Virus record (IMG/VR): IMGVR_UViG_3300032285_000968
Span: 1-38,778 of that record
Length of the DNA: 38,778 nucleotides
Source of the DNA: a virus
Direction: 5' to 3' (one strand)
The position numbers and the translations under genes are program-made. Positions 1,161 to 18,322 of this stretch are shown one piece after another; the first letter of the stretch is position 1, and every line of letters begins with the position of its first letter. The notes below the pieces were generated by a model that saw only the letters and a list, made by a program, of their open reading frames with translations, did no database searches and was not told the origin of the DNA.

Positions 1161-1176
1161 TTTGGTTTCTCCACTC

Positions 1177-1198: not shown

Positions 1199-1202
1199 CA
1201 TT

Positions 1203-3793: not shown

Positions 3794-4224
3794 AAGATAA
3801 GATAGTGTGTAGTGGCGCATTAATTTACGCTAAGAAAACTCACAGGATTCTACTTTTACAAAAAGCACACGGCAAACATGAAGGAACTTGGGGACTAGTA
3901 GGCGGTACTACTATAGAAGGTGAAAATCCCTGGCAAGGTCTGCAGAGAGAAATCATAGAAGAAATCGGTTCTCTCCCCAAAATAATCAAAACGATTCCAT
4001 TAGAAACATTTGTCAGCAACGACTATGTCTTCAATTTCCACACTTATCTCTGCGTTGTAGAAGATGAGTTTGTTCCTGTACTTAGCGACGAGCACACAGC
4101 GTGGGCTTGGGCTGGTATAGATACTGCTCCTAAGCCCCTACATCAGGGATTAAGAAACAGTTTTAGTAATCGTGCCATGCGCACAAAATTGCAAACTGTG
4201 TTTGAAGTTATGGATTTAATCTAA
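3775..4224 (+). CDS. Nudix hydrolase
   Basis: The Nudix box GX5EX7REUXEEXG is complete at residues 44-65: G44, E50, R58-E59, E62-E63, G65. The preceding strands ('VCSGALIYAKKTHRILLLQK', 'GTWGLVGG') are those of the Nudix fold, and the length (149 aa) is usual. Members hydrolyse nucleoside diphosphate-linked compounds using divalent metal at the box glutamates; the substrate cannot be read from the sequence. The gene starts inside the end of the gp15-like gene (19-base overlap) and is followed after two bases by the first oxygenase, so it is expressed with virion and tailoring genes. A role in pruning nucleotide-linked substrates of the island is possible but is inference. Confidence 0.9.
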   Translation: MESSVVKDKIVCSGALIYAKKTHRILLLQKAHGKHEGTWGLVGGTTIEGENPWQGLQREIIEEIGSLPKIIKTIPLETFVSNDYVFNFHTYLCVVEDEFVPVLSDEHTAWAWAGIDTAPKPLHQGLRNSFSNRAMRTKLQTVFEVMDLI

Positions 4225-4226
4225 CT

Positions 4227-4814
4227 ATGTGGAAAATACCAAGTATTTCTAAACCTATAGAGCCTTATGCCTGGATGCAAAATGTCTTTACTCCAGAAGA
4301 ATTAGATCTGATTATCGATATCGGAAAATCGCTTCCGTTAGTCAACGGCGGAGTGAATGATGCAAATACTCCTGCCAGCACAGCCGTTCGCAGGAGCAAG
4401 ATTGCGTGGATATATCCCGAAGTTAGCAACACTTTTATATTTGTAAAACTTACCGATGCACTGTTAAGGATCAATGATACCTTTTTTAATTACGACCTAA
4501 CTGAGCTAGAAGATTTACAGTTTACAGAGTACGATTCCAGTTACGAAGGAATGTACAGAAATCATACAGACGACGGTTACGATACAGAAAAATATAGAAA
4601 ATTAAGTTTTACATTGCAACTGTCCGATCCAACCGATTACGAAGGCGGCGACTTGCAACTGTATCGCTGGAAACTAGATCAACCTAATGTAGTAAAGAAA
4701 GAAAGAGGTCTTTTATCAGTCTTTACCAGTAGCACAATACACGAAGTAACACCTGTAACTAAAGGAACACGGTATACATTAGTAGGATGGGCCAATGGAC
4801 CAAGATTTCGCTAA
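4227..4814 (+). CDS. 2OG-Fe(II) oxygenase, PKHD/prolyl-4-hydroxylase-like
   Basis: A 195-residue protein with the full non-haem iron set: H113-T-D115, distal H172 and 2-oxoglutarate-binding R182. Between them is the family's 'LSFTLQLSDPTDYEGGDLQLY' stretch (126-146) and 'GLLSVFTSSTIHEVTPV' (161-177), as in PiuC/PKHD-type hydroxylases. Such enzymes hydroxylate an unactivated carbon while decarboxylating 2-oxoglutarate. The substrate is not evident; proline or other residues in proteins are the best-known targets of the group. It is the first of twelve such genes in this operon and overlaps the next by 20 bases. Confidence 0.85.
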   Translation: MWKIPSISKPIEPYAWMQNVFTPEELDLIIDIGKSLPLVNGGVNDANTPASTAVRRSKIAWIYPEVSNTFIFVKLTDALLRINDTFFNYDLTELEDLQFTEYDSSYEGMYRNHTDDGYDTEKYRKLSFTLQLSDPTDYEGGDLQLYRWKLDQPNVVKKERGLLSVFTSSTIHEVTPVTKGTRYTLVGWANGPRFR

Positions 4815-5367
4815 AGTAAACATTGTTAGTCTATGGCCAACATCTATACTGATGACAGAATATCATGAGAATTTGCCTGATTTAATTTCTGAAATCTACA
4901 GATTATCAAACGAGACAAACAATATTAAAAAATCTAACTATGGTGGTTGGCAAAGTAATGTCGATCTATATAGCAATGATAAATTTAAACCACTTTGTCA
5001 ATACATAGCTAAAATATGTTTTGAACAATTTGGAAAGGACAGCACTACTATACATCAGATGTGGGTAGGCATTAATAAAAAATATCATCACAATGTTATT
5101 CATAATCATGGTTCACAGTATCATGTATCCGGTGTATATTATGTTAGTGTGCCTCTGGAGTCAGGGGATATTGTATTCCGAGACCCTCGTCCTGCCGCAA
5201 CTAGTTCGTCAGCTCGGGAGTTATTTGATAAAGGAGAATGTGAAAGATTTAGACCTTATTCTGGTCTCATATTATTATTTCCTTCATACCTAGACCATTT
5301 TGTTTTACCCAGTGAAAGCGCCGAGGATCGTATCTGTATTAGCTTCGATCTAACGCTAAAGGACTGA
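4795..5367 (+). CDS. 2OG-Fe(II) oxygenase-like protein (PF13759/TIGR02466 type, HxH)
   Basis: A 190-residue protein that opens with 'VSLWPTSILMTEY', the usual N-terminus of this family. It carries 'IHNHGSQYHVSGVYYVSVP' (102-120) with H103-N-H105, then 'SGDIVFRDPR' (123-132), 'LILLFPSYLDHFVLP' with H168, and R179 in 'EDRICISF'. These are the expected metal and 2-oxoglutarate positions, except that the first pair is HxH rather than HxD. The family is called putative 2OG-Fe(II) oxygenase and activity is mostly unproved. It starts within the end of the previous oxygenase and ends one base before the next gene, whose AAAGGA binding site lies inside this reading frame. Confidence 0.75.
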   Translation: MDQDFAKVNIVSLWPTSILMTEYHENLPDLISEIYRLSNETNNIKKSNYGGWQSNVDLYSNDKFKPLCQYIAKICFEQFGKDSTTIHQMWVGINKKYHHNVIHNHGSQYHVSGVYYVSVPLESGDIVFRDPRPAATSSSARELFDKGECERFRPYSGLILLFPSYLDHFVLPSESAEDRICISFDLTLKD

Positions 5368-5368
5368 T

Positions 5369-6016
5369 ATGTTTTTAGATAACAAGATAATAATTATAGA
5401 TAATTTTTATAAAGATCCCGATGCTGTTCGTAAATTTGCGTTGTCGGAGCCATATAAAACTTGCAAAGAAGCACCCGGCGGCGGCAATTGGCCAGGTCGA
5501 CGAACTGATTTTTTGCATGAAATTAATACTGATATAAGCGATGAGTTTCATAATACTTTCTTAGGTAATCTTTTAGAAAATAATCCTATCAAATATCGAG
5601 GATATATCGAAACAAACTTCCAATTGTGTTACGAAAGCGACGGCGATTCCTGGGTACACTATGACACTCCGACTTGGCACTGTACACACGTGGGTGTAGT
5701 ATATCTTACACCAAATCCTCCGGAAAATTCTGGAACATTATTCTACGAATTTGACGAAACATATCGTGCCGAGTTTGAAAAGTATGCGGCAAAACATAAT
5801 TACAAGTGGTATGGCTTGAATAGAGACCAGGACAAAGAAGAATTCCATAAGTTTTTTAAAATGACTATGCAGATACCAAATGTATACAACAGGGCTATAT
5901 TATATGGGCCACACCGTTGGCATAAGTCAGATCGATATTTTGGAGATACACCAGAAAATGGAAGATTATTCCAGCCATTTTTTGTTAATTTAGAATTTTT
6001 GTATGATGAAAAGTAA
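5369..6016 (+). CDS. DUF6445-like putative 2OG-Fe(II) oxygenase
   Basis: A 215-residue protein beginning 'IIIIDNFYKDPDAVRKFALS', the DUF6445 opening, with 'WVHYDTPTWHCTHVGVVYLT' (95-114) containing H97-Y-D99, then 'NSGTLFYEF' (120-128). Near the end come 'GPHRWHKSDRYFG' (180-192) with H185 as probable distal ligand and R199 in 'GRLFQPFFVN'. In bacteria DUF6445 genes often sit beside tryptophan halogenase-like genes (established context, from memory), and this gene shares an operon with three. The product is probably a soluble non-haem iron oxygenase of unknown substrate. The end overlaps the SGNH gene by 14 bases. Confidence 0.7.
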   Translation: MFLDNKIIIIDNFYKDPDAVRKFALSEPYKTCKEAPGGGNWPGRRTDFLHEINTDISDEFHNTFLGNLLENNPIKYRGYIETNFQLCYESDGDSWVHYDTPTWHCTHVGVVYLTPNPPENSGTLFYEFDETYRAEFEKYAAKHNYKWYGLNRDQDKEEFHKFFKMTMQIPNVYNRAILYGPHRWHKSDRYFGDTPENGRLFQPFFVNLEFLYDEK

Positions 6017-6653
6017 ACCTACACTTGCTATATACGGAGATAGTTTTGCAGACCCGAGGTGGGTTGAAAATGACTATCCAGCATGGTCAGAATTATTAGA
6101 AGAAAATTTTACAGTTACTAATTTTTCTTTTACCGGAACTGGTATGTGGTGGAGTTATGATAAATTTATTGAAACACATGAAAAATTCGATACTGTTGTA
6201 TTTGTTGTAACTGTTCCTGGCAGGATACACATAGAATGCAAGGATGCCCACTTAAATTTAAATCCAGCAACATGGCCTGTTTGGAGTGGTATCAACATGG
6301 GCGATATGTATTTTAGATATTTTTATTCTCCTAAGAGAGAAGATTGTTTCCATAAATTTATGGTTGATGATATTTTAAAAAGAAATAATATTCTAGTAGT
6401 TCCAGCATTCAAAGAAAGTATTCCGGGCCACGAAGGCTGGTCACTATGTCATCTAGCAGATACTGAACTGGCATTCTACGATTTAAAGCACAATGGTTGG
6501 AACGAAAAGAGAAAATGCCATATGACTAGAGAAAACAACAGAATGGTTTATAATAAAGTACTAGAGGCGGTCGATAACGGTTCTAAGATTTTAAATCTAC
6601 AGGAATCTGATTTTGTTCCACCAGCCGATCCTTTAACAATGTATTGGAAGTAA
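6003..6653 (+). CDS. SGNH/GDSL-type hydrolase
   Basis: A 216-residue protein starting 'KPTLAIYGDSFADP': G12-D13-S14 is SGNH block I with the nucleophile serine. 'FSFTGTGMWWSY' (41-52) fits block II (oxyanion glycine), 'TVVFVVTVPGR' (64-74) block III, and H173 in 'KCHMTRENN' is a plausible block V histidine. Such enzymes are esterases or deacetylases and act on acyl groups of sugars, lipids or peptides. There is no signal peptide, so it acts in the infected cell or on assembling virions. It overlaps the preceding DUF6445 gene by 14 bases and ends one base before the next oxygenase. The asparagine of block III is replaced by a T/P-rich turn, so function is less certain than fold. Confidence 0.65.
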   Translation: MMKSKPTLAIYGDSFADPRWVENDYPAWSELLEENFTVTNFSFTGTGMWWSYDKFIETHEKFDTVVFVVTVPGRIHIECKDAHLNLNPATWPVWSGINMGDMYFRYFYSPKREDCFHKFMVDDILKRNNILVVPAFKESIPGHEGWSLCHLADTELAFYDLKHNGWNEKRKCHMTRENNRMVYNKVLEAVDNGSKILNLQESDFVPPADPLTMYWK

Positions 6654-6654
6654 C

Positions 6655-7224
6655 ATGGAATATAAGATTATAAGAAATTTTACAGATATCGATACTTGCA
6701 ATCGCCTGGTCGATCGTCTAGATCGATTTTATAAAGACCAACTAGATCTGCCGCCTGATAATCAATGCCCAAACAGCCCATCATTCTATGGTATTTTTAA
6801 CGACGAATCACAACTATGGTTGCCGCGCATCGAAGAGGCGGTAGAAAAGAAACTGTTTCCAACATACACTTATTCAAGGATATACACTAAAGGAGAAGTT
6901 CTACCTCCCCATGTAGACAGAGACGAATGCGAATTTAGTTTTACACTGGCATTAAGATACGATAAAGATATCTGGCCCATATACTTGCAAACCAGCGAAG
7001 GTGTAAAGGAAGTATTTTTAGACAATGGAGATATACTAATTTATAAAGGTGTTGAAAATATACATTGGCGGCTAGCTTTAGAAAATCAATTCCATTACCA
7101 AGGATTTTTCCACTATGTAGATCAAGACGGCCTATTTGCACACAAAAAATTTGATGGCAGGTCTACTTTTGCAACCACACAAGATGCAGTCGATGAACTA
7201 CTAAGGAGAAAAAATGTACTATAA
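6655..7224 (+). CDS. 2OG-Fe(II) oxygenase-like protein (HxD type)
   Basis: A 189-residue protein with 'YSRIYTKGEVLPPHVDRDECEFSFTLALRYD' split across 73-103: H86-V-D88 are the first iron ligands, followed by 'WPIYLQ' and 'FLDNGDILIYKGVENIHWR' (121-139) with H137 and R139. The spacing and 'G(D)xxxYxG...HxR' ending are those of phage and bacterial prolyl-4-hydroxylase-like proteins. In this type the 2-oxoglutarate arginine lies two residues after the distal histidine. The C-terminal 30 residues continue as a helix. The end overlaps the next gene by 11 bases; AGGAG for that gene is at 7204-7208. Confidence 0.75.
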   Translation: MEYKIIRNFTDIDTCNRLVDRLDRFYKDQLDLPPDNQCPNSPSFYGIFNDESQLWLPRIEEAVEKKLFPTYTYSRIYTKGEVLPPHVDRDECEFSFTLALRYDKDIWPIYLQTSEGVKEVFLDNGDILIYKGVENIHWRLALENQFHYQGFFHYVDQDGLFAHKKFDGRSTFATTQDAVDELLRRKNVL

Positions 7225-7813
7225 CGACGAGTTTAAGTATATGCTAATCGATGTTCCCTACATAGCAGAGAATATCGAAGATATCAAACGTATGACCGCA
7301 GTAGGTGTTGACAAGTTTAAGCGGAAGTTTAATCTAAAAAATCATGCCAATAGTACCGATAATATTACTTGGCAGTTTTCTAACTATAATGTATACAGCG
7401 TTTGCTCGTGCAATCAGTGGTTTTATAACATCTATAAGAATCTAGTTACAGGCATACGAGAATATCATACTCTTTCAAATACTCCTATACCGTCCCAATT
7501 ATGGATGCAGTCGTGGATTAATAGCCACACCCCAAAACAAGTTCTAAAATCACACAATCACGACTGGCCGTTGCACGGATATATCAGCATCGAACCCATG
7601 AAATCCTGCACTGTTTTTACCGACAAACCGAACGGTAAGGAGCTATACCGCGTAGAAAACAAAGTCGGACAGATTTATATAGGGCCCGGGTACAGATTCC
7701 ACCACGTTGAAATGTTAGAGCCGTTTGCAGGCGAACGCATTACATTTGGATTCGATCTAGAGAACAGGGATCGCATTATCGATAATATGGGTCTCATACC
7801 AATAATCATCTGA
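7214..7813 (+). CDS. Putative cupin/2OG oxygenase-like protein (HxH type)
   Basis: A 199-residue protein. 'LWMQSWINSHTPKQVLKSHNHDWPLHGYISIEP' (starting at 96, two segments) resembles the 'W.N.h..g....HxH....HG.i.i' core of HxH family members, with H114-N-H116. 'GQIYIGPGYRFHHVEML' (152-168) offers H163/H164 as distal ligand and R175 in 'GERITFGFDL' (173-182) as 2-oxoglutarate contact. The double-stranded beta-helix pattern is clear; the chemistry is inferred. It is the last gene before the only intergenic gap in the unit (7814-7863). Confidence 0.6.
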   Translation: MYYNDEFKYMLIDVPYIAENIEDIKRMTAVGVDKFKRKFNLKNHANSTDNITWQFSNYNVYSVCSCNQWFYNIYKNLVTGIREYHTLSNTPIPSQLWMQSWINSHTPKQVLKSHNHDWPLHGYISIEPMKSCTVFTDKPNGKELYRVENKVGQIYIGPGYRFHHVEMLEPFAGERITFGFDLENRDRIIDNMGLIPIII

Positions 7814-7828
7814 GCTTAAAAAAATCTG

Positions 7829-7851
7829 CGTAAATACTCGGTATATAAATG
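7829..7851 (+). promoter_or_regulatory. T4-like late promoter candidates
   Basis: The only gap longer than a dozen bases in the rightward unit after position 1203 contains CGTAAATAC (7829-7837) and TATAAATG (7844-7851), six and seven matches of eight to the late consensus TATAAATA. TATAAATG ends 3 bases before the GAGG ribosome binding site of the next gene, so if used it would give a very short leader; the upstream copy would give a normal one. It suggests that the second part of the island, including all halogenases, can be transcribed independently. Confidence 0.45.
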
Positions 7852-7863
7852 ACCGAGGAACCC

Positions 7864-8451
7864 ATGATTAATAAGAATTCAGAAATTTATCTTTTAGAAG
7901 ATGTCGTATCTCCGGATACTTTTGTTAACGTTTCGGCAGATCTAGACGGCGACATATGGAAATACGGCGTGATGACTCCTTACATAGGAGCCGAGATCGA
8001 GGATGATACTAAATTTTGGTACTGCGACATGTTAAAAAACAGATGGCAGGAACTGATATTTCGGGATATTATCCTCAAGCTAGAAACGGTACATCCGCAT
8101 ACTTCACAATATCAATTTAAAAGCATGGACGTTAAGGCTGGCGGGAAAACTGCCGGCATGAATGGCGATGTGCATATTGATCGCACATTTAATTTCAATG
8201 TAGAAGGCGACGGATATATGACTTTTTGTTATTTTCCTAACAGAGAATGGAAAGATGAATGGGGCGGGGAACTAGTGTTCTACGATGCAGAAGGCGATGT
8301 TATTGCAAGCATATTGCCTAAACCAAACACATGCGTAGTATTCGACAGTAATATTCCACATCAAGGATTCGGCCCGAATGCTGGCTGCGATGTATTAAGG
8401 AAATTTATATCTTATAAGACATTTGTACACAAACAGTGGAACAAAACTTAA
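7864..8451 (+). CDS. 2OG-Fe(II) oxygenase (HxD type, 'EWGGEL' subgroup)
   Basis: A 195-residue protein from the ATG at 7864, chosen because GAGG at 7855-7858 lies 5 bases upstream. An in-frame ATG at 7849 lies within the promoter-like TATAAATG and lacks a binding site. The iron set is H104-I-D106 ('DVHIDRTF'), H166 ('NIPHQGFGP') and R179 ('DVLRKFISYK'). Between them is 'EWGGELVFYD' (132-141), where the conserved GGxL turn matches prolyl-hydroxylase relatives. It is the first gene after the internal promoter and is followed by the small zinc-ribbon-like gene. The substrate is unknown. Confidence 0.8.
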   Translation: MINKNSEIYLLEDVVSPDTFVNVSADLDGDIWKYGVMTPYIGAEIEDDTKFWYCDMLKNRWQELIFRDIILKLETVHPHTSQYQFKSMDVKAGGKTAGMNGDVHIDRTFNFNVEGDGYMTFCYFPNREWKDEWGGELVFYDAEGDVIASILPKPNTCVVFDSNIPHQGFGPNAGCDVLRKFISYKTFVHKQWNKT

Positions 8452-8462
8452 AGGAGATTCTT

Positions 8463-8714
8463 ATGGAAGGGAAAAAGATTCCACGTATCATACGTAAAGT
8501 AGATGGGCAACATAGGCGTCAACACTTTAACGACAAAATACTGATAGTCTCTGAGCATATCGCTCAAGAGCGTCTTGGTATTTGTAAAACATGTACATCT
8601 TTTGAAGATTTTGGATGCACAGTGACTGGGTTTTTCATGCCCGTTACTGTTAAACAAAAATCACAACAATGCCCATATGGAAAGTGGAGCACAAACTATA
8701 CTGTCGAGGAGTAA
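8463..8714 (+). CDS. Small cysteine protein, degenerate zinc-ribbon-like (CxxC...C...CPxGKW)
   Basis: An 83-residue protein; the start at 8463 is fixed by AAGGAG at 8451-8456, six bases upstream. It is basic at the N-terminus (KKIPRIIRK, RR) and has C41, C44, C52 and C70, ending 'CPYGKW'. Marine phages and bacteria encode many small proteins with the pattern CxxC-x(n)-CxxCGCxM..K...CPxGKW, thought to bind zinc. Here the middle knuckle is reduced to 'CTVTGFFM', leaving four cysteines. The function is unknown; a structural or partner role for the neighbouring enzymes is possible. It lies between an oxygenase and a DUF6065-like gene, with one base to the latter. Confidence 0.65.
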   Translation: MEGKKIPRIIRKVDGQHRRQHFNDKILIVSEHIAQERLGICKTCTSFEDFGCTVTGFFMPVTVKQKSQQCPYGKWSTNYTVEE

Positions 8715-8715
8715 A

Positions 8716-9477
8716 ATGTCTGTTATCAAAGTAGGATACACTCCTTGGTTTGAAAAATCTCCCAATACTAGCGGCCTGGGGCCGCTAAACTATTATGGCT
8801 GGCAAGAAATCGTACACTATGATCTAGAAAAGCTAGACACTTGGAAAGATTCTAAAGTTGGATTTATGAAATGCCCGGCTTTTTTAAAATATGTAGAACA
8901 GATTTGGGTTATACGAGCTCTCGTAGATGTTGAAATATCATGGGACAAGCATAATGCAGTTCTGAACAGCAACTTACCACCTCTGGCACACGATGCAATG
9001 GTCAAAGTACACTGGGGAGATTTCGATCCTAAGACTGATAAACCGGTAGTAGCCATTAACAGTGCAATGCTTTTATTTGCCGATGAAGAAGTATGGGTAG
9101 ATTTTTTACCACCTTGGAATCATATAGATCCTCGCTGGAGATTGATGCCTGGTAGTTTTGATATATGTAACTGGCAGAGGCCAGTAGTTCCTACTTTCGA
9201 AATGTTAGAAGATAAGATACAATTTAAGAGGGGACAACCATTGGCATATGTAAGGTTCCGCAGTAGGAATCCACAAGATATGTTCCAGTTGATTAAACAC
9301 CCCCGCACAGAAGAATTAGATCATATTGTTAACTCATCTGTATCAGTTAAATCATATCAAAATAATCTAAGCTGGAAAATTGTTACAGGTATGATTCCTA
9401 ATAAGCTACGTCCTAAAAAGATGGTAAAATCTGAGCCATGGATCTGTAAATTCTTTAGGAAGATATTAAACAAATGA
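8716..9477 (+). CDS. DUF6065-like protein (paralogue of the gene at 15181)
   Basis: A 253-residue protein starting MSVIKVGYTPWFEK; GAGGAG (8706-8711) is four bases before the ATG at 8716. It shares with the protein at 15181 a 'CPA...Y....W/YVI.A..DVEI.W' segment near residue 55, a central 'PPWNHIDPRWRLMPGSFDICNWQRPV' type stretch, and 'IQFKRGQPLAYVRFRS' towards the C-terminus, which is the DUF6065 ending 'kGxPxxxxxP'. DUF6065 has no assigned activity and is found near halogenase-like genes. The end overlaps the first halogenase by four bases (ATGA), which implies coupled translation. Family assignment is from pattern, not a search. Confidence 0.55.
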   Translation: MSVIKVGYTPWFEKSPNTSGLGPLNYYGWQEIVHYDLEKLDTWKDSKVGFMKCPAFLKYVEQIWVIRALVDVEISWDKHNAVLNSNLPPLAHDAMVKVHWGDFDPKTDKPVVAINSAMLLFADEEVWVDFLPPWNHIDPRWRLMPGSFDICNWQRPVVPTFEMLEDKIQFKRGQPLAYVRFRSRNPQDMFQLIKHPRTEELDHIVNSSVSVKSYQNNLSWKIVTGMIPNKLRPKKMVKSEPWICKFFRKILNK

Positions 9478-10940
9478 TTAAATCGATGACTATATTAGGC
9501 GGCGGAACTAGTGGCCTAGTAACGGCGCTGATACTTAACAAATGGTATCCCACTATGGGCATCACTATTGTAGAATCTTCCACTATTGGAATAGTGGGCG
9601 TTGGCGAAGGTTCGACTGAACACTGGAAAACGTTCATGGATACAGTAGGAATTAATGTCAAAGAACTAGTACTCGAGACCGGTGCCACTTTTAAATCAGG
9701 AATCAAATTTGAAAACTGGAACGGTGATGGCAAATCTTATATGCATTCACTACACATCGACCACACTCAGATGATGGCTAACGGACAAGCTGGTGTGTTG
9801 CTTAAGATGATATGTGATGGAGAAACACAGCTATATCCCGACAACATTGCTAAATCTATGCACCACTATCCGTTAGATCAGCAAGTAAACCAATTTCATT
9901 TTGACACATTTAAATTAAACGAATTCCTGCATAAGAAATGCAAGGAAAGAGGCGTTGTTATAGTCGACGATGATATACAAGATGTCGAAATAGACAATGA
10001 AGGATATGTTTCTAACTTAGTTAGTATACACGGCAAAAAATATACCTCTGAATTCTTCGTTGACTGTTCGGGATTCGCTCGTGTCATTAGTTCTAAATTA
10101 GGAGCGAAATGGATCGACTGTAAAGAATACTTACCCATGGATCGTGCTATAGCGTTTCCTACAGAAACTACAGCTGAAATCCCATCGCATACTTTAAGCC
10201 GTGCATTATCGAGTGGATGGAACTGGAGAATTCCTACACAGGATCGATATGGTAACGGCTATGTTTATTCTAGCGAGTTCCTAACAGACGATCAAGCTGT
10301 AGAAGAAATACAGCAATACTACGACAAAGAAATAAAGATAGGTAAGAGTTTTAAATTTTCAGCAGGCTATGTTGATAAATTCTGGATTAAAAATTGTGTT
10401 TCTCTAGGACTTGCCGGAAGTTTCGTAGAACCATTAGAAGCCACTAGCATAGGTACTAGCATACAGCAGGCATTTATGTTAGGAGGTTCGATAGTTAACT
10501 GGACACGCGGTGATGAATTGATCCGAGATGTCTACAATAAGGCCTTTGAATCTGTTGCAAAAAATATCATAGATTTTGTACAGATACATTATATTACCAA
10601 GCGCAATGATACAGAATTCTGGAGAAGTTGTAAACATCTGAAATTAACTGATTTCAATCAACAGACATTCGAACATTTTAAGAACGTATTGCCAAACAAA
10701 TCTTATTTTTCAAATACAAACTGGGTGCTATTTTCAGAATTAAACTGGATACAGGTTATTGCAGGATTAGAACAGTTTGATCTCGATAAACTCCGAGCTA
10801 TATGGCATGCACAGCATCCTGGAGTAATAAAAGAAACTGAAGAAATGTTAGTTAAGATGAAGATTTTTTACAGGGATGTACTAACATTCAGCCACAGAGA
10901 CGCATTAGAATTCCTTAAGAAAGAAATCAAAGTAGTCTAA
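9474..10940 (+). CDS. Flavin-dependent tryptophan halogenase-like protein 1 (PF04820)
   Basis: A 488-residue FAD enzyme. G9-G10-G11-T-S-G14 is the Rossmann GxGxxG, 'GVGEGSTEHW' (42-51) the second FAD motif, K74 in 'ATFKSGIKFENW' aligns with the catalytic lysine of PrnA (K79), and W249-N-W251-R-I-P254 is the halogenase signature WxWxIP. 'FVEPLEATS' places E322 at the PrnA E346 position, with T324/S325 where the halide is held in PrnA. All key residues are therefore compatible with halogenation. These enzymes use FADH2 and oxygen to make HOX, so a flavin reductase must come from the host or elsewhere in the genome. The length is typical of the family. It overlaps neighbours by 4 and 1 bases. 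Substrate unknown; free tryptophan is not implied. Confidence 0.88.
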   Translation: MIKSMTILGGGTSGLVTALILNKWYPTMGITIVESSTIGIVGVGEGSTEHWKTFMDTVGINVKELVLETGATFKSGIKFENWNGDGKSYMHSLHIDHTQMMANGQAGVLLKMICDGETQLYPDNIAKSMHHYPLDQQVNQFHFDTFKLNEFLHKKCKERGVVIVDDDIQDVEIDNEGYVSNLVSIHGKKYTSEFFVDCSGFARVISSKLGAKWIDCKEYLPMDRAIAFPTETTAEIPSHTLSRALSSGWNWRIPTQDRYGNGYVYSSEFLTDDQAVEEIQQYYDKEIKIGKSFKFSAGYVDKFWIKNCVSLGLAGSFVEPLEATSIGTSIQQAFMLGGSIVNWTRGDELIRDVYNKAFESVAKNIIDFVQIHYITKRNDTEFWRSCKHLKLTDFNQQTFEHFKNVLPNKSYFSNTNWVLFSELNWIQVIAGLEQFDLDKLRAIWHAQHPGVIKETEEMLVKMKIFYRDVLTFSHRDALEFLKKEIKVV

Positions 10941-12442
10941 TGAAACGAGATATTATAGTCTTAGGTGGAGGCGGTGCAGGATGGATCACTGCTTTATTTT
11001 TAAAAGAAAAATTTCCTAATATTAGTATCACGGTCGTTGAAGATCCTAACACTCCTCCTATTGTTGCAGGTGAAAGCGGTTCCGCTTTATTCAATAAATT
11101 ATTAAATTTTTTAGGAATAGAATTCAATGAGTGGATTCCCGCAGTTAACGCTATGCCAAAACTGGGCGGACGATTAGTTAACTGGAACGGCATTGGTACC
11201 TCGTTTGTGCATGGTCTAGTACCTCAATGGTACAGCGCACGATACGACGGTGAATTTCCTGCGTTTGGAGACTCGATAGATTTTATATCCACAGCAGTTG
11301 CTCTAGACGTTCCAGTAGATAAGATATTTTATGCGGCAGACCTACAGAATACCAATAAAATACCCATAACTCCGGCAGGAGGTGTCAATAGTTTTAATGT
11401 ATTAACGATGCCCATGTGGCATTTTGATAGTAGGGCTAATGCAACATTCATGAAGGAAAGAGCCCTTGAAAAAAATATCAAGTTGGTAGAAGGAAAATAT
11501 ATCAGCTGTACCAAGACACCACGTGGGGATATCAGCAGTATACTGTTAGACGACGGGTCTGAACTAAAAGCCGATTGGTATTTTGATTGTTCTGGATTTG
11601 CTAGATTGTTACTGAAGAAAGAACTAGGCGTAGAAGAAAACGATCTTAGCGATTATTTTCCAGCAAGTTCGGTCTTAGCATGGTGGGATGATCCTACTAT
11701 AAAAAATTATACCGGTCTCACAGCTATGAAACACGGTTGGAGCTGGGAGATTAATCTACAGCATAGAGCTGGAAACGGATACATCTATGACGAACAACAT
11801 GCATCTGTCGATGAGATCGTACAAGAGATAGAAGAGACATTCAATAAAAAGATCACGCCTGTGGCGAATCTAAAATTCCGACCCTCGTTGCTTAAAGAAG
11901 GATGGAGGAATAACGTAATAGCTATCGGTTTAAGTAGCGGGTTTTTAGAACCATTAGAATCTAATGGGCTTAGTAGCATTGCAGAACAACTAAAAGCTGT
12001 AGAAAATTTCTGGAACCCTGAAAGTCTAGGAGGGTGGGATCGTGATTGTTATAACAGATACACTGCTGAAGTCATGTCTGATATATGCGATTTCTTATGT
12101 CTGCATTATAGAGGAAAACGCAATGATACTGAATTCTGGAGAGATCATAACACTAATCCAATAAGGATTTCAGACAAATTACGAGAAAGATTAGATGGCG
12201 CTAGGGAAGGTGTATTAGGAATCGATGATGTCCAAGGATACGGTATAGAAAATTACATAGTTGTCATGCAAGGTCTTAGCTTAATTAATAAAGAAAAATT
12301 AAAGAATCGACTATTGGCAAAAAGATCTACTATATTTGAAGATTTTGAAAAACATTATAATATACTGTCAAAAGAGATTGCTCAAATTAACGAAATATGT
12401 TACACTACAGAACAGTGGAGATCTATAATTTATGGAAAGTAA
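10940..12442 (+). CDS. Flavin-dependent halogenase-like protein 2 (PF04820, divergent motifs)
   Basis: A 500-residue paralogue of the preceding gene. The FAD motif G9-G-G-G-A-G14-W is intact and K74 in 'MPKLGGRLVNW' is in the catalytic lysine position. The second motif reads 'VAGESGSALF' instead of 'GVGExS', and the signature is W267-S-W269-E-I-N272, with asparagine replacing the proline of WxWxIP. At the halide site 'FLEPLESNG' gives E340, N342, G343, with asparagine for the PrnA threonine. It is therefore either a halogenase with altered halide or substrate use or a related monooxygenase. 'RGKRNDTEFWRDHNT' near residue 396 is shared with halogenase 1 ('TKRNDTEFWRSC'), so the two are duplicates. 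Start and stop overlap both neighbours (1 and 11 bases). Confidence 0.8.
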   Translation: MKRDIIVLGGGGAGWITALFLKEKFPNISITVVEDPNTPPIVAGESGSALFNKLLNFLGIEFNEWIPAVNAMPKLGGRLVNWNGIGTSFVHGLVPQWYSARYDGEFPAFGDSIDFISTAVALDVPVDKIFYAADLQNTNKIPITPAGGVNSFNVLTMPMWHFDSRANATFMKERALEKNIKLVEGKYISCTKTPRGDISSILLDDGSELKADWYFDCSGFARLLLKKELGVEENDLSDYFPASSVLAWWDDPTIKNYTGLTAMKHGWSWEINLQHRAGNGYIYDEQHASVDEIVQEIEETFNKKITPVANLKFRPSLLKEGWRNNVIAIGLSSGFLEPLESNGLSSIAEQLKAVENFWNPESLGGWDRDCYNRYTAEVMSDICDFLCLHYRGKRNDTEFWRDHNTNPIRISDKLRERLDGAREGVLGIDDVQGYGIENYIVVMQGLSLINKEKLKNRLLAKRSTIFEDFEKHYNILSKEIAQINEICYTTEQWRSIIYGK

Positions 12443-13049
12443 TATAGAAACTATTAACCTATTTCCTATACCAATTAAAAAAGTCAAAATCATTCCCTCG
12501 GAACATCAATATAATTCGTTGGGCAGTTTGATCGACAGGTTACTGTCTAGTACATCCGAAAATAATTGGGCACTAGAATCAGGAAAATCCACAGGCGAAT
12601 TAGATCTATATCTCTACAAGAAAATAGAGATGAAATGGTTAGTCGATGCCGCTTTACTCCATGCAAATAATTATTGGCAAGATATGGATTATAGGAGAGG
12701 TGCAAAAGTATCTATAACCAGCAGTTGGGCGAATTTACATACATACGGCCAGGTTACCGGCGAGCACAGCCATTGCGGTGGCGCAGTCAAAGCACACATT
12801 TCTGCTGTATATTATCTTAAAAAACCCAAGGATTCAGGAAACATAAAGTTTACTGATCCGCTAGAATATATACATAAAATGACACCGGCTCATAACTACG
12901 ATGAAACATTCGGTAGTACGTATTGCGAAGTCGATACAGATCAATTCGACCTGATACTATTCCCAAGCTGGTTAAAGCATCAGACACAGCCTAATATGTC
13001 CTACGACGATCGTGTGGCAATTAGCATAAATTTTATAGGAACTTGGTAA
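12432..13049 (+). CDS. 2OG-Fe(II) oxygenase-like protein (PF13759/TIGR02466 type, HxH)
   Basis: A 205-residue protein and the clearest family member here: 'INLFPIPIKKVKI' at the start, 'SSWANLHTYGQVTGEHSHCG' (97-116) with H112-S-H114, 'ISAVYYLKKPKDSGNIKFTDP' (123-143, read as two blocks), 'LILFPSWLKHQTQPN' with H183, and R194 in 'YDDRVAISIN'. It sits between halogenases 2 and 3, overlapping each (11 bases and TAATG), so the three proteins are probably made in similar amounts. That position makes a joint action with the halogenases more likely than for distant members, which is inference. Confidence 0.8.
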   Translation: MESNIETINLFPIPIKKVKIIPSEHQYNSLGSLIDRLLSSTSENNWALESGKSTGELDLYLYKKIEMKWLVDAALLHANNYWQDMDYRRGAKVSITSSWANLHTYGQVTGEHSHCGGAVKAHISAVYYLKKPKDSGNIKFTDPLEYIHKMTPAHNYDETFGSTYCEVDTDQFDLILFPSWLKHQTQPNMSYDDRVAISINFIGTW

Positions 13050-14632
13050 TGATTGTTGATAGTATTGTTATTGTAGGCGGCGGAACAGCCGGGTGGATGA
13101 CTGCGGCCACGTTAGTTAAGCATTTTCCTAATAAGAAAATCACGCTAATCGAAAGCGCAGATGAACCAACAGTCGGAGTTGGCGAAAGTACTATCGGCGG
13201 AATCAATGATTGGTTAAACTCGTTAGACATCAATGAAGATGACTGGATGAAGGCCTGCGATGCTAGTCTTAAACTCAGTATCAAATTCACAGATTGGGCC
13301 GGGAAAGGGTCCGGATCATTCCACTATCCGTTTGGAGAATCATGGACTGTTGGCACTGCGCATGGTATCAACGATTGGTATATTAAAAAAGCATGGTACC
13401 CGGAAACTCCTGTCAGTGATTTCTGCGATTGTTTCTTCCCGCAGATGGAATTAGTCTATCAGAACAAGGTTACAAAAAACGAAGAAGGCGAATTACCCGG
13501 TTGGAGGTATGACAGAGACGTTGCCTATCACTTTGATGCCGCAAAATTTGGAGCATGGCTGAGAGAAGGATATTCCAAGCCACGTGGTGTACAGCACATA
13601 GTAGGCACTATAAAAGAGAATGTTGCTACCGATAAAGACGGTGTTCAGTATTTAGAATTAACCACTGGTGAAAAAATTACTGCGGATCTGTATATTGATT
13701 GTACAGGATGGAAGAGTTTATTGTTAGGTAAAGCATTAGGTGTTCCGTTTATCAGTTATGAGCACCTGTTGCCCAATAACAGTGCATGGGCTACTAGATT
13801 GCCCTACACAAATAAAGTAGACGAACTAGAAGGTTATACTAACTGTACAGCAATCAGCAACGGCTGGGTTTGGAATATTCCGTTATGGAGTCGCATTGGT
13901 ACAGGCTACGTCTTTTCCGACAAGTATATTTCTAAAGAAGATGCGCTAGAAGAATTTAAAAACTATCTAAAGACTGATAGAGAAGTTAAAGTAGATCCAG
14001 CCGTCGTTGAGTCTCTCGAATATCGATTTATCAAGATGCGTATTGGCATTCACGAAGAGCTTTTCCATAAGAATGTGTGTGCTATCGGTCTATCAGCCGG
14101 ATTCATAGAGCCGTTAGAATCTAATGGGTTGTTTACTGTACACGAGTTTCTACATCAACTTGTAAAAACACTAGGACGTCGGGACATAGGCATGATTGAC
14201 AAGATGGGATTCAACAAGACATCTACCGGCGCATATGATTCATTTGCAGAATTTGTCAGCATGCACTATACACTAAGCCAGAGAAATGATACACAATATT
14301 GGCTCGATGCTCGCGAACGACTCGGCGGCCGATCAAAAGAAATAGGAATCTATAAGAGCTATGGTATCGATAATGCCATATTCAAGAGAGATTTCTCCTC
14401 GGCGTTCGACGGAACCATGGGAGGATTGCCTATGATTGCAACCGGATTAAATTATTTTCCCGTAGACCTTAACACTATACGCAGGACAGAGTTTAAGCAT
14501 GGCATAAATTTATCTTTTGTTAATGATTCTTTTGAAATATGGGAATCAAATAAGGTTTACTGGAAATCGGTTGCTGATAAATCACCTACTATTCTGGAAT
14601 ACCTAGAGTCAAAGTATGATAATTCCAAGTAA
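13049..14632 (+). CDS. Flavin-dependent tryptophan halogenase-like protein 3 (PF04820)
   Basis: A 527-residue protein from the ATG at 13049 (AGGA at 13037-13040, 8 bases upstream; an upstream in-frame TTG at 13043 is less likely). All signatures are classical: G10-G-G-T-A-G15-W, 'TVGVGEST' (41-48), K75 in 'ASLKLSIKFTDW', and W273-V-W275-N-I-P278. The 'FIEPLESNG' block gives E357, N359 and G360 at the halide site. 'HYPFG' and 'YHFDAAKFGAWLRE' stretches are typical of bacterial tryptophan halogenase-like proteins. It is the longest and most canonical of the three and is less like the other two than they are like each other. It overlaps the next gene by 17 bases. Confidence 0.88.
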   Translation: MIVDSIVIVGGGTAGWMTAATLVKHFPNKKITLIESADEPTVGVGESTIGGINDWLNSLDINEDDWMKACDASLKLSIKFTDWAGKGSGSFHYPFGESWTVGTAHGINDWYIKKAWYPETPVSDFCDCFFPQMELVYQNKVTKNEEGELPGWRYDRDVAYHFDAAKFGAWLREGYSKPRGVQHIVGTIKENVATDKDGVQYLELTTGEKITADLYIDCTGWKSLLLGKALGVPFISYEHLLPNNSAWATRLPYTNKVDELEGYTNCTAISNGWVWNIPLWSRIGTGYVFSDKYISKEDALEEFKNYLKTDREVKVDPAVVESLEYRFIKMRIGIHEELFHKNVCAIGLSAGFIEPLESNGLFTVHEFLHQLVKTLGRRDIGMIDKMGFNKTSTGAYDSFAEFVSMHYTLSQRNDTQYWLDARERLGGRSKEIGIYKSYGIDNAIFKRDFSSAFDGTMGGLPMIATGLNYFPVDLNTIRRTEFKHGINLSFVNDSFEIWESNKVYWKSVADKSPTILEYLESKYDNSK

Positions 14633-15191
14633 TCCATGGCCTAGTTTAATTTATAAATCACACTACGATGGCGATCTCAGTGAGATCGTAACAGTGGCCA
14701 GTGCGATTTGTAAAAACATAACAGAAGATCATGGATTAGAAGACGGTGGAAAATCAACTTGGGATCGAACTATCAGTATACTAGACTTGCCTGAATTTGT
14801 TGATCTAAAACAATGGTTGATAGATCGACATTCCGAAGCATGGAACGCATGGGGTTTCAATGATCACAAGCGACATCTACATAAAAGCTGGGTAAACTGG
14901 CATCCAACAGGAGCCAGTACTAGAGAACACGATCATGGTGCTGTACATTTAGTCATAGTGGTATATCTACAGCAACCAGAAAACGGTGGAAATATACAAT
15001 TTAAAGATCCGTTGCAATACCACTGGAGCTCTTATCCTAGCCCTGATACTGACAATTGGAAAACTATCGAAGTTAAGACCGGTGATGTACTATTTTTTCC
15101 CGGTTTTCTACGACATCGCACTGAACCTAATACCGGTACAGGTGATAGATTTGTACTAACAGCTAACATAACGGCACAATATGCTCTTTAA
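14616..15191 (+). CDS. 2OG-Fe(II) oxygenase-like protein (PF13759/TIGR02466 type, HxH)
   Basis: A 191-residue protein with 'SWVNWHPTGASTREHDHGAV' (91-110), where H105-D-H107 and the intervening D106 leave open which residues bind metal. It continues 'VVYLQQPENGGNIQFKDP' (114-131), 'TGDVLFFPGFLRHRTEPN' (154-171) with H166, and R177 in 'GDRFVLTAN'. The N-terminal 'PWPSLIYKSHYDG' is the family's usual opening. It is most like the protein at 12432, and the two flank halogenase 3, which suggests duplication as a halogenase/oxygenase pair. Overlaps of 17 and 11 bases link it to its neighbours. Confidence 0.8.
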   Translation: MIIPSNPWPSLIYKSHYDGDLSEIVTVASAICKNITEDHGLEDGGKSTWDRTISILDLPEFVDLKQWLIDRHSEAWNAWGFNDHKRHLHKSWVNWHPTGASTREHDHGAVHLVIVVYLQQPENGGNIQFKDPLQYHWSSYPSPDTDNWKTIEVKTGDVLFFPGFLRHRTEPNTGTGDRFVLTANITAQYAL

Positions 15192-15921
15192 TAAAAAACA
15201 AACACCGATTATAGAATTTAGTTGCAAGGAATGGGCCATAAGAAAACATGCCCCAGTACTGCCTTCTATACATTTTCTTCCTAAAGAGTATGAAGATCTG
15301 CCAGCTGGGAATAAATGTCCGTTTGATCACTTTCAAGAAGCATCGTTACTAAGCATTAAATTATGCCCTGCGGTTGGCAATTATCTAAACGCAGGATATG
15401 TTATACCTGCATGGTGCGACATTGAGATCACATTTGAAGACAATAATTTTAGAATAAACTACAGCAATCTGAACTATCAGCATCGTACACATCCTGAAGA
15501 ACAATTTAAAGGCATGTTTGATCGATTTAAGATGCGAACAGATATCAAATTAGACAGCCCGTGGGCTATTAAAACTGCACCCGGTTATAGTGTTATGTGG
15601 ATGCCCATGTGGTTCCACAACAATAATTTCCAAGCAGTTCCTTCCATAGTCGATACTGATTCGGTTCCAAATCATAATCCTATAAACATCATGCTATTTG
15701 AAGCAAAGACCACAATTATTAAGATGGGAGATCCATTAGTACAAGTGATTCCTTTTAAGAGAGAACACATTACAGGTGTTAGTAGAGAATATACCGAAGC
15801 AGACTATAAACGCAAAGATGCATTAATGGGTTTAGGACAACTATCTAAGTACGGCTGGCGACAATTTATCAAGAAAAATGTAAAATATTTGTTAGACCGT
15901 AAGGATCTCGATTTGCCATGA
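15181..15921 (+). CDS. DUF6065-like protein
   Basis: A 246-residue protein with 'LCPAVGNYLNAGYVIPAWCDIEITFEDNN' (from about 61), 'SPWAIKTAPGYSVMWMPM' (about 121-138), and 'TTIIKMGDPLVQVIPFKRE' (about 177-195). The 'W.I.T.PGYS......' and 'G.P..Q.IP.KR' blocks are those of DUF6065, a family of unknown activity found in phages and bacteria. It resembles the gene at 8716, so the three halogenases are bracketed by two members of one family. The C-terminus 'YGWRQFIKKNVKYLLDRK' is basic and helical. It is coupled by overlap to both neighbours (11 and 4 bases). Confidence 0.65.
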   Translation: MLFNKKQTPIIEFSCKEWAIRKHAPVLPSIHFLPKEYEDLPAGNKCPFDHFQEASLLSIKLCPAVGNYLNAGYVIPAWCDIEITFEDNNFRINYSNLNYQHRTHPEEQFKGMFDRFKMRTDIKLDSPWAIKTAPGYSVMWMPMWFHNNNFQAVPSIVDTDSVPNHNPINIMLFEAKTTIIKMGDPLVQVIPFKREHITGVSREYTEADYKRKDALMGLGQLSKYGWRQFIKKNVKYLLDRKDLDLP

Positions 15922-16517
15922 TAGATATAAACGATATTATCGTATTAGATGATGTAATTAACAAGACATATCAACATGCCTTAGAAAATGTACTGCTAGA
16001 AGAAATGGGGGCTCATTGGTTTTTGCTAGATGATGTCGCATATCCAAGCCCAGCAGTCAGCATCTGTCGCCCTGGAATAGTACATCCTTTGTTTGAACAG
16101 AACAAAGGAATCATGAGTTCTTTATATAACTTAACATTGCCCATGGTGTTTGAAGCTGTTTCTAACATTGATTATACTTTTGGAGAAGTCGTAAGAGCAC
16201 GTTCGTTCATACAATTTCCTACAGGCGCTAATCTTGTCAATCATCCACATATAGATACTAACGAACAGCATCTAGTATGCTTATATTATGTAAACGATAG
16301 CGACGGTGACACTGTAATCTATAACGAGACTGCGGACGATATTCAAAATTTACCCGGAATAGATACAAGTATGCTAACTATTAAGCAAACTATTTCTCCT
16401 AAGAAAGGACGTGCGGTATTATTTAATGGTAGAAGATATCATAGTAGCACTACGCCTATAGCTAATAAAAGGTGTATAGTGAATTTTGATATCACAGTAA
16501 GGATTAAAAATGCTTAA
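15918..16517 (+). CDS. 2OG-Fe(II) oxygenase (HxD type), tandem paralogue A
   Basis: A 199-residue protein with H111-I-D113 ('NHPHIDTNEQH'), H175 ('GRRYHSST') and R185 as the iron and 2-oxoglutarate residues. 'LVCLYYVNDSDGDTVIYNE' (119-137) and 'SPKKGRAVLFNG' (160-171) complete the double-stranded beta-helix core, in the pattern of phytanoyl-CoA/prolyl-hydroxylase-like marine phage proteins. The first residues 'IIVLDDVI' match the next gene's 'FIVIDDVV'. ATGA overlap joins it to the DUF6065-like gene, and an 8-base overlap joins it to its duplicate. Confidence 0.8.
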   Translation: MIDINDIIVLDDVINKTYQHALENVLLEEMGAHWFLLDDVAYPSPAVSICRPGIVHPLFEQNKGIMSSLYNLTLPMVFEAVSNIDYTFGEVVRARSFIQFPTGANLVNHPHIDTNEQHLVCLYYVNDSDGDTVIYNETADDIQNLPGIDTSMLTIKQTISPKKGRAVLFNGRRYHSSTTPIANKRCIVNFDITVRIKNA

Positions 16518-17184
16518 TTTAGACGAATTTATCGTGATAGACGATGTAGTAAGTCCGCAGTTTCAGAAATTAATCGAAGAATGGTTGTTGTCTCCGGCTA
16601 GTACATGGTCTTTTGCACGTGATGTTGCCCTAGATGACAATGTTATCGATAATCTAAAACTAAACTCAAGACCCGGATTCAGCAAAACGCTGTTTAGCCT
16701 CAAGAGCGGAAAATCTAATGACCTGTATCCTATGATTTTACCATTAGTTTTCGAAGCTAGCGCAAAAGCAGGACTGCATGTAGGAACTGTTTTGTTTTCT
16801 AGAAGTTTTATAACACTTCCAATTCCTGGCGATACCGGCAATACTTTTGACCATGTGCATGTTGATACACCCGATGAGCATATAGTTTGTCTATACTACG
16901 CAAATGATAGCGATGGCGATACTGTATTTTTTGATTGGACTGTTCCTCAATTATTAGAAGACCCGGAAATACAGCAAGCTCTAGAAGCCTCGGGTCATAA
17001 TTACAATGATCAGACATTGTTAGATCTACTAGATAAACGTATTGCAAAGAGCGATTTTAAAGTAATAAAAAGAGTAACTCCTAAGAAAGGAAGAGCTGTA
17101 TTCTTCAACGGTTTAAGATATCATTCGTCAACTAGATGCACAGCTGGATATCGTTTAATCGTTAATACTTGCTTCAGGCCATGA
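16510..17184 (+). CDS. 2OG-Fe(II) oxygenase (HxD type), tandem paralogue B
   Basis: A 224-residue protein that repeats the preceding one: 'RSFITLP', H117-V-D119 ('HVHVDTPDEH'), 'IVCLYYANDSDGDTVFFD' (125-142), 'TPKKGRAVFFNG' (190-201), H205 ('LRYHSST') and R215. It differs by an insertion of about 25 residues between 142 and 185 (a helical 'EDPEIQQALEASG' segment), near the expected substrate mouth, which could change specificity. AAGGA just upstream of the ATG at 16510 is a good ribosome binding site. It is a clear local duplication product. Confidence 0.8.
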   Translation: MLNLDEFIVIDDVVSPQFQKLIEEWLLSPASTWSFARDVALDDNVIDNLKLNSRPGFSKTLFSLKSGKSNDLYPMILPLVFEASAKAGLHVGTVLFSRSFITLPIPGDTGNTFDHVHVDTPDEHIVCLYYANDSDGDTVFFDWTVPQLLEDPEIQQALEASGHNYNDQTLLDLLDKRIAKSDFKVIKRVTPKKGRAVFFNGLRYHSSTRCTAGYRLIVNTCFRP

Positions 17185-17741
17185 TTATGAAATATCAAGA
17201 ACACACAACTAAATCAGGAAATAAGATTAAAGTATGGGATGACTTGTATAGTTATTCTGAACGTGTTGCTATGCTAAGGGGAATCACCGAAAGTGATTTT
17301 AAGTTTCGTTCGACTTACGATAATGAACTTGAAAATCAGGAAGGAACTTGGTCAGTATATTGTGATTTAAATCTAAATCTAACTACTATGCTACTTGTAG
17401 ATAAAGTTCCTGAATTAAGGAAAGAATTTGCAGGATATCATCCATTCAGGTCATGGGTAAATTCCTCGACTAAGGAAACAGATCATGCATTCCATCCAGA
17501 TTCCGATGACCCTACATGCAAGAGCATGTTATATTATGCAAATATCAAATGGGATCATCTAAATTGGGATGGTTATACTATCTGGAGGACTCCGAATCTA
17601 GATGATATAGAATTTGTTAGCGATTTTATACCTGGAAGGATAGTTGTATTTGATAGCATAATTCCGCACAAAGCTTCTATCGCTAGTAAACGGGCACAAC
17701 CATTTAGATTTACTATTAATACTATCTGGAAACCACTGTAA
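17181..17741 (+). CDS. Putative 2OG-Fe(II) oxygenase-like protein (HxD type)
   Basis: A 186-residue protein from the ATG at 17181, whose ATGA overlaps the previous stop; an upstream in-frame TTG at 17169 would add four residues and is less likely. 'FRSWVNSSTKETDHAFHPDSDD' (two blocks from 89) carries H105-P-D107. 'SMLYYANIKWD' and 'GYTIWRTP' follow, then 'GRIVVFDSIIPHKASIASKR' (152-171) with H163, and R176 in 'FRFTINTIWK'. The order of elements fits the fold, with 'IxFDSxxPHxA' being a typical distal histidine block. It stops within the start of the last gene (TAATG). Confidence 0.7.
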   Translation: MIMKYQEHTTKSGNKIKVWDDLYSYSERVAMLRGITESDFKFRSTYDNELENQEGTWSVYCDLNLNLTTMLLVDKVPELRKEFAGYHPFRSWVNSSTKETDHAFHPDSDDPTCKSMLYYANIKWDHLNWDGYTIWRTPNLDDIEFVSDFIPGRIVVFDSIIPHKASIASKRAQPFRFTINTIWKPL

Positions 17742-18322
17742 TGTCTAGCGATATACAATGGGTTGGGTCTATTCCAATAGCCAGATCATTCTGGAAGGAA
17801 TTCGATCAGCATAAGAATGCTATTGTAGATCTATGCCTACGGCAAGAAAAAACAAACGTTATAGAATCAAACATTGCAGTAGATTTAAAACAAAATATGT
17901 GGGAATCAAATTTTAATTTTTTGTCACAGCCAAGTCTAACTGAACTTAATACATGGATGCATTCCGTAACTTCTGATTTTGTCAGTAATGTTAACAACAA
18001 ATCCCACAGGATTGCAATAACAGAAAGCTGGGCTCATGTTACTAGACCTTCGGGATATCATGGACCGCACAGGCATCCGTGGTCAACCTGGAGTGGGATT
18101 TTTTATGTTTATGCAGACGATCCGTCAGTTGCCAACAACACATTCCTTAATCAATTCAATATGCCTGTGATTCCTGGGTATGAATTTTTCGAAGAAGAGA
18201 TGCAGATAGAATTTAAAGCAGGGTCACTCGTGATTTTCCCAAGTACAATGTTGCATTACGCAAAACCATACTTGGGAAATGATAAGAGAATAGTTATTAG
18301 TTTTAACAGTGTCTGTCTTTAA
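17741..18322 (+). CDS. 2OG-Fe(II) oxygenase-like protein (PF13759/TIGR02466 type, HxH)
   Basis: A 193-residue protein and the last gene of the rightward unit. 'ESWAHVTRPSGYHGPHRHPW' (95-114) includes H110-R-H112; 'SGIFYVYADD' (118-127) follows; 'GSLVIFPSTMLHYAKPYLG' (161-179) carries H172 and R183 follows in 'KRIVISFNS'. The G-I-x-F-x-DP strand is replaced by a longer 'NTFLNQFNMP' loop, so it is the most divergent HxH member. The stop codon TAA at 18320-18322 abuts the stop of the converging tail gene with no space for a terminator. Confidence 0.75.
   Translation: MSSDIQWVGSIPIARSFWKEFDQHKNAIVDLCLRQEKTNVIESNIAVDLKQNMWESNFNFLSQPSLTELNTWMHSVTSDFVSNVNNKSHRIAITESWAHVTRPSGYHGPHRHPWSTWSGIFYVYADDPSVANNTFLNQFNMPVIPGYEFFEEEMQIEFKAGSLVIFPSTMLHYAKPYLGNDKRIVISFNSVCL

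Follow-up and report, generated by a model that had tools for sequence, protein, structure and literature searches.

A phage island of predicted halogenases and oxygenases, conserved in gene order and linked to glycine-rich fibre genes

We analysed a 38,778-base virus fragment from IMG/VR (IMGVR_UViG_3300032285_000968), referred to below as the window, which comes from a large uncultured phage. An island of 19 genes on a single strand (4227-18322) encodes three halogenases, 12 oxygenase-like proteins, two DUF6065-like proteins, one zinc-ribbon-like protein and one SGNH-like protein. It is packed behind the tail gene gp15, the catalytic motifs of its halogenases are intact, its gene order is conserved, and it is linked to glycine-rich fibre genes across unrelated phage lineages. 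We estimate a probability of slightly under 0.6 that these enzymes are expressed late and hydroxylate and halogenate the fibre or tail tips of the phage itself. Relatives of the enzymes adjoin glycine-rich fibre tips in many other phages, a pattern suggesting that certain phages may chemically modify the proteins with which they bind their hosts.

Enzymes of the island

Proteins were assigned by Pfam profiles, PHROG families, phmmer searches of the PDB and motif conservation across relatives, and folds were assessed by structure models and Foldseek. The matches of the three halogenases (Hal1-Hal3) to PF04820 covered 400+ positions. Each of them carried the GGGxxG flavin-binding motif, both catalytic residues (Lys and Glu) and a WxWxI motif, which extends to WxWxIP in Hal1 and Hal3 and reads WSWEIN in Hal2. 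In the halogenase motif comparison, K74 was invariant and E322 nearly invariant. The catalytic residues of the three enzymes are intact, and their predicted reaction is the halogenation of an aromatic compound at the expense of FADH2 and O2. Hal1, Hal2 and Hal3 formed separate well-supported clades across contigs, which indicates that they are old retained paralogues and not recent duplicates. A Hal2 relative in another contig (L023, 6362-7840) has EPLG in place of the catalytic-Glu motif EPLE and is perhaps an inactive copy.

The oxygenase-like proteins comprised seven of the HxD type and five of the HxH type. Matches to PF13640, PF13759 or DUF6445 reached E ≤ 3.4e-4 in ten of the 12; eight of these ten passed the curated cut-off, whereas A6 and A14 fell below it; A15 had a Pfam match at only E 0.03 and A5 had none. 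For A5, A6 and A15, weaker by Pfam, support comes from motifs and from PHROG relatives (PHROG 3531 matched A1 as well as A5), and A5 and A15 are the weakest oxygenase assignments. The second His and the Arg were conserved in most oxygenase families, least clearly in A5. The facial triad and the Arg for 2-oxoglutarate (2OG) were present in those HxD proteins that have relatives; A15 had no distinct relatives to compare. In the five HxH proteins a third His replaces the carboxylate, as in 2rg4, a solved PF13759-like protein. PHROG names A5 a ferrochelatase, A7 and A13-A15 DNA endonuclease V, and A3 a minor coat protein; these names were judged misleading and are probably wrong labels, because they conflict with the oxygenase motifs and Pfam matches.

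Between the NUDIX hydrolase gene and the last island gene, 15 of the 19 junctions were overlaps, three measured 0-2 bases and one 35 bases. Upstream (369-4224) lie the genes of gp13, a gp14-position protein, gp15 and the NUDIX hydrolase. From the other side, G0, three glycine-rich fibre proteins (G1-G3), two small proteins and a 4999-aa fibre converge on the island.

A first-pass annotation of the window had described these ORFs (open reading frames) as one strand of mostly overlapping or touching genes with seven HxD and five HxH proteins. The ORFs were recovered at the same coordinates and on one strand, 18 of the 19 junctions overlap or touch, and the count of the two types was exact. Profile searches likewise placed most of the oxygenase-like proteins in 2OG-Fe(II) families and all three halogenases in PF04820. 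Of the smaller proteins, the zinc-ribbon-like one scored just over the DUF6171 cut-off, and the putative SGNH hydrolase has only a GDS motif, with no Pfam or PHROG match. The two DUF6065-like proteins gained support through relatives, of which 2 of 31 matched PF19541 (best E 9.6e-7).

Gene order across contigs and proximity to glycine-rich fibre genes

The gene order was conserved in at least eight diverged IMG/VR contigs and was nearly constant in L004-L025. In contigs about 50-77% identical at the protein level, the conserved block runs gp14-gp15-NUDIX, oxygenases, zinc-ribbon protein, DUF6065-like protein, halogenases, DUF6065-like protein and oxygenases, and converges on G0-G1-G2-G3-fibre. 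Because the same order recurs in many contigs, the gene set of the island is not a chance assembly. The whole locus was present in a 270 kb IMG/VR relative, G001 (L013), with four tandem halogenases (47584-62877). Five halogenase ORFs were seen in L045 and L046.

Isolates of the Kyanoviridae show another arrangement, in which fibre, glycine-rich protein, G0, halogenases, in most a DUF6065-like protein, and oxygenases lie on one strand. Relative to the enzymes, the fibre cluster of these isolates is oriented differently from that of the window. Because the same parts adjoin in a different gene arrangement, their adjacency has survived rearrangement. Two halogenases each were found in Syn9, S-RIM44, P-TIM40 and P-RSM6, which also have a G0 homologue at the same place, and one in Sf-CH11; the glycine-rich proteins of the isolates were 39-42% identical to G3. 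The genes gp13-15 follow the enzyme block in S-RIM44, and the simpler block of Sf-CH11 also precedes gp13-15. This compact version (glycine-rich protein, two oxygenases, halogenase, two oxygenases, glycine-rich protein, then gp13) occurs in L064, L039, L050, L029 and Sf-CH11 (L093). Oxygenases of S-RIM44 and Sf-CH11 adjoin a second glycine-rich/fibre locus without a halogenase, and an oxygenase gene of P-RSM6 sits between two glycine-rich fibre genes. The locus is not unique: annotated cyanophages already contain smaller versions that have gone unnoted, the VirX1 locus of Syn9/Syn10 among them.

The linkage was evaluated by circular rotation in six long genomes. Within 6 kb of a glycine-rich ORF lay 11 of 16 halogenases (2.4 expected, p ≤ 5e-4), and within 10 kb lay 46 of 75 oxygenases (16.9 expected, p ≤ 5e-4). 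Among 52 non-redundant IMG/VR halogenase clusters, the 27 with nearly full 5 kb flanks were used for counts; a glycine-rich ORF lay within 5 kb in 20 of them and an oxygenase within 3 kb in 26.

The profile PF21722 exceeded its cut-off in G1, G2 and G3. The structure model of G3 (mean predicted local distance difference test score, pLDDT, 75.9) matched the fibre of cyanophage Pam3 (7ypx; E 2.8e-9, template-modelling (TM) scores 0.51/0.62) as well as Bxb1 tail-tip proteins in Foldseek. As modelled, the glycine-rich proteins resemble the receptor-binding head of the Pam3 fibre; receptor recognition by that fibre is reported to lie with its glycine-rich domain (PMC9608196). This likeness came from the fold search; the glycine-rich fibre sequence had no match in the PDB. 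A tblastn search with G2 returned two phage records only, probably due to the low-complexity filter.

The features of the window are listed in Table 1. The gp14-position protein likewise precedes gp15 in L022, L036 and phage Ettore. G0, which had no match in the PDB, is possibly a fibre chaperone. The model of the DUF6065-like protein A12 (pLDDT 77.8) matched dUTPases in Foldseek (E 3e-5, TM by target ~0.6), so a dUTPase-like fold is possible for these proteins as a fold hint only. Beside the giant fibre, a partial second PHROG 9851 fibre ORF lies at the window edge (38387-38776). In the contigs L066, L043 and L030, the glycine-rich fibre tips are also Cys-rich, with repeated aromatic motifs.

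Table 1. Features of the window; coordinates refer to its whole length
Name	Assignment	Position	Strand	Evidence
gp13	neck protein homologue (head-tail adaptor Ad2)	369..1178	-	PHROG 211 E 6.7e-32
gp14 position	virion structural protein	1203..2363	+	PHROG 11591 E 1.9e-84
gp15	tail sheath stabiliser, jumbo-phage type	2363..3793	+	PF16724 E 6e-23
NUDIX	NUDIX hydrolase	3775..4224	+	PF00293 E 1.8e-15; belongs to gp14-gp15-NUDIX synteny
A1	HxD 2OG-Fe(II) oxygenase	4227..4814	+	PF13640 E 2.6e-15; H113/D115/H172/R182 conserved
A2	HxH 2OG-Fe(II)-type oxygenase	4795..5367	+	PF13759 E 2.5e-19; H103/H105/H168/R179
A3	DUF6445, HxD type	5369..6016	+	PF20043 E 5.5e-11; H97/D99/H185/R199
A4	SGNH-hydrolase-like	6003..6653	+	GDS motif only; kept in related loci
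A5	HxD oxygenase-like, weakest assignment	6655..7224	+	PHROG 2954 E 1.5e-39, PHROG 3531; H86/D88/H137
A6	HxH 2OG-Fe(II)-type	7214..7813	+	weak PF13759 E 3e-4; PHROG 2696, 81; H114/H116/H164/R175
A7	HxD 2OG-Fe(II) oxygenase	7849..8451	+	PF13640 E 2.3e-10; H109/D111/H171/R184
A8	small zinc-ribbon-like protein	8436..8714	+	DUF6171 28.1 bits, cut-off 27
A9	DUF6065-like, adjoins halogenases	8677..9477	+	PHROG 17480/7084; alignable with A12
Hal1	flavin-dependent halogenase	9474..10940	+	PF04820 E 5e-101; GGGTSG, K74, WNWRIP, EPLE; PDB relatives 9luq, PrnA
Hal2	flavin-dependent halogenase	10940..12442	+	PF04820 E 1.9e-84; catalytic Lys and EPLES retained, WSWEIN
A10	HxH 2OG-Fe(II)-type	12432..13049	+	PF13759 E 5e-19; solved relative 2rg4
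Hal3	VirX1-type halogenase	13043..14632	+	PF04820 E 1.6e-104; top PDB match VirX1 6qgm E 1.3e-104
A11	HxH 2OG-Fe(II)-type	14616..15191	+	PF13759 E 1.2e-13
A12	DUF6065-like	15181..15921	+	PHROG 7084 E 3e-37
A13	HxD 2OG-Fe(II)	15918..16517	+	PF13640 E 6e-6; H111/D113/H175/R185
A14	HxD 2OG-Fe(II), A13 paralogue (36% identity)	16510..17184	+	PF13640 E 3e-4
A15	HxD 2OG-Fe(II)-type	17169..17741	+	PHROG 274 E 8e-14; HPD at 109
A16	HxH 2OG-Fe(II)-type	17741..18322	+	PF13759 E 3e-17
G0	conserved small protein between enzymes and fibre tips	18323..18964	-	PHROG 1787
G1	glycine-rich fibre tip	18975..19922	-	PF21722; PHROG 863
G2	glycine-rich fibre tip and extra domain	19924..21426	-	PF21722, Mtd_N
G3	glycine-rich fibre tip	21433..22374	-	PF21722; Foldseek 7ypx
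F4	fibre-cluster protein	22404..22946	-	position conserved in related loci
F5	small fibre-cluster protein	22984..23319	-	position conserved in related loci
Giant fibre	4999-aa giant tail fibre	23341..38340	-	PHROG 9851 E 8e-115; five CBM_5_12 modules (PF02839)

Proposed function and alternative explanations

We propose that the enzyme set, composed of non-redundant oxidative enzymes, would be made together with the late tail genes and would act on the phage's own glycine-rich fibre tips, perhaps also on further parts of the fibre, ahead of virion assembly. Hydroxylation of side chains would fall to the 2OG-Fe(II) enzymes, and exposed aromatic residues such as Tyr, Trp or His would be halogenated by the VirX1-type halogenases with host-derived FADH2. 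The host-binding surface could thereby be hardened, shielded or diversified, with a possible effect on host binding. The active site of VirX1 is unusually large and accessible, and its aromatic scope is broad (PMC8407142). A flavin reductase of the phage's own was rejected, since no PF01613 gene was found in G001 or five isolates. In promoter scans of the window, the T4 late promoter consensus TATAAATA was uninformative, with no exact occurrence and fewer near-matches than expected by chance, and sigma-70 promoters were at chance level. In a wider proposal, which we hold tentatively and at somewhat less than even odds, phages would carry a transferable post-translational tailoring system, made up of as many as four or more tandem halogenases together with a dozen oxygenases, whose dedicated task is to halogenate and hydroxylate their own receptor-binding fibre tips. 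VirX1-type viral halogenases, and many 2OG oxygenases of phages, would then have this task as their physiological function.

At 38 of 69 usable loci, bacterial relatives of the halogenases adjoin a gene on the same strand that encodes 850 aa or more; six tested large neighbours (at loci L198, L211, L233, L206, L169, L213) were TonB-dependent receptors or plug-domain carriers, a seventh was an RHS-repeat protein, and in one tested case a major facilitator superfamily (MFS) transporter stood beside the relative. These neighbours again place the halogenase family beside surface proteins, and they fit substrate uptake too. Together with the facts that PF04820 enzymes of known function act mostly in natural-product pathways and that VirX1 accepts many small aromatics in vitro, the TonB receptors and the transporter favour an island for the synthesis or tailoring of a small metabolite bearing halogen and hydroxyl groups (an antibiotic, a signal or a protectant), comparable to PrnA in pyrrolnitrin synthesis. 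Such a role is nevertheless rather unlikely, since Pfam and PHROG scans found no scaffold-building enzyme or transporter among the island proteins and since it leaves the adjacency to glycine-rich fibres in unrelated lineages unexplained. The same adjacency, to fibres rather than capsid genes, makes it improbable that the enzymes act on some other macromolecule, such as a different virion protein, a glycan or protein on the host surface (for superinfection exclusion) or nucleic acid. Nucleic-acid and protein hydroxylases do exist among 2OG enzymes and the virion genes gp13-15 neighbour the island too, but Pfam scans detected no AlkB or base-modification family, and enzymes located in the cytoplasm would have no access to the outer surface. 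An effect on host 2OG/nitrogen status was proposed in 2010 for cyanophage 2OG oxygenases (PMC3037559), and a hyperplastic region with host genes is described for cyanomyoviruses. We regard it as highly doubtful that the island is a hot spot of auxiliary metabolic genes of this kind: it would not need twelve divergent oxygenases and three old halogenase paralogues in conserved order, no unrelated metabolic genes are mixed into it, and many oxygenases track fibre genes, not metabolic genes.

Several observations weigh against modification of the phage's own fibre. No modified residue has been seen. The six genomes of the linkage test are related, so that the p-values overstate independence, and were picked for carrying a halogenase; the linkage of oxygenases at 4 kb was not significant (10 observed, 8.0 expected). 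Seven of the 27 halogenase loci had no glycine-rich ORF within 5 kb, some oxygenases were located in replication regions, and cyanophage genomes also carry short PrnA-like halogenases at other sites. The fibre side may be a hot spot for accessory genes, in which case linkage would reflect location rather than function, and the TonB-dependent receptors fit small-molecule uptake equally well. Glycine-rich parts near halogenases looked richer in Tyr/His than the few distant ones; this difference was not used as support because the near parts are mostly one family.

Cyanophage prnA and 2OG genes are long-known accessory genes with speculative roles (PMC3037559, PMC2984593, PMC10452541), and 2OG oxygenases are widespread among marine phages according to an analysis with Phold (PMC12774648). 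For the natural substrate of VirX1-like viral halogenases and of these abundant oxygenases, the conserved link to receptor-binding glycine-rich fibres offers a concrete candidate that is testable in the cultured phages Syn9, Syn10 and S-RIM44; in the part of the literature covered by our search, we noticed no proposal of the fibre as their substrate. If fibre modification is true, phages would alter the chemistry of host recognition by enzymes, beyond sequence variation, and protein-acting halogenases would become available as tools.

Comparison with known systems

The first-pass interpretation, a multi-step hydroxylation and halogenation system with fibres among its candidate substrates, is partly supported. 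The enzyme families and gene order stood, and the link between island and fibre survived the comparison across genomes; what changed is that the locus is not unique and that the phage lies near jumbo myoviruses. The best isolate matches of gp15 were Sinorhizobium phage Phosso (36%), PA5oct-type phages (33%) and Atu_ph07 (30%), a relationship that places the phage close to jumbo myoviruses and away from cyanophages. The photosystem reaction-centre family PF00124 was absent from the 270 kb relative G001, and a cyanophage (Kyanoviridae) identity was ruled out by this absence and by the gp15 relatives. Homologues of gp14 and gp15 occur in Arenbergviridae/PA5oct-type and Phosso jumbo phages, with a gp13 homologue too in Phosso and Atu_ph07, and Ettore (Arenbergviridae) has gp14-gp15-NUDIX in the same order. 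Unlike the window, the Arenbergviridae/PA5oct-type and Phosso phages lack the island in the stretches examined, Ettore included.

The window halogenases belong to the same fold family as PrnA, RebH and PyrH and have the two catalytic residues, Lys and Glu, and the WxWxI motif in common with them. In contrast to these enzymes, they have no pathway genes nearby, and their sequence similarity to PrnA stops before its C-terminal region, the phmmer alignments ending at PrnA residues 414-434. The C-terminal region of PrnA binds free tryptophan. On the fibre side, the predicted fold of G3 and its glycine-rich domain resemble the Pam3 tail fibre gp24 (7ypx), a longer N-terminal part being the difference between the two.

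The closest counterpart among halogenases is VirX1 of Syn10 (PDB 6qgm), the best PDB match of Hal3. The Syn9 locus resembles the island in having two halogenases, a DUF6065-like protein, oxygenases and glycine-rich fibre proteins, whereas the window has three halogenases from three clades, more oxygenases, the opposite fibre orientation and a jumbo-myovirus backbone. The oxygenases belong with the 2OG-Fe(II) accessory genes of Kyanoviridae through PHROG families 61, 81 and 274 and differ from them in that twelve stand in one block of conserved order.

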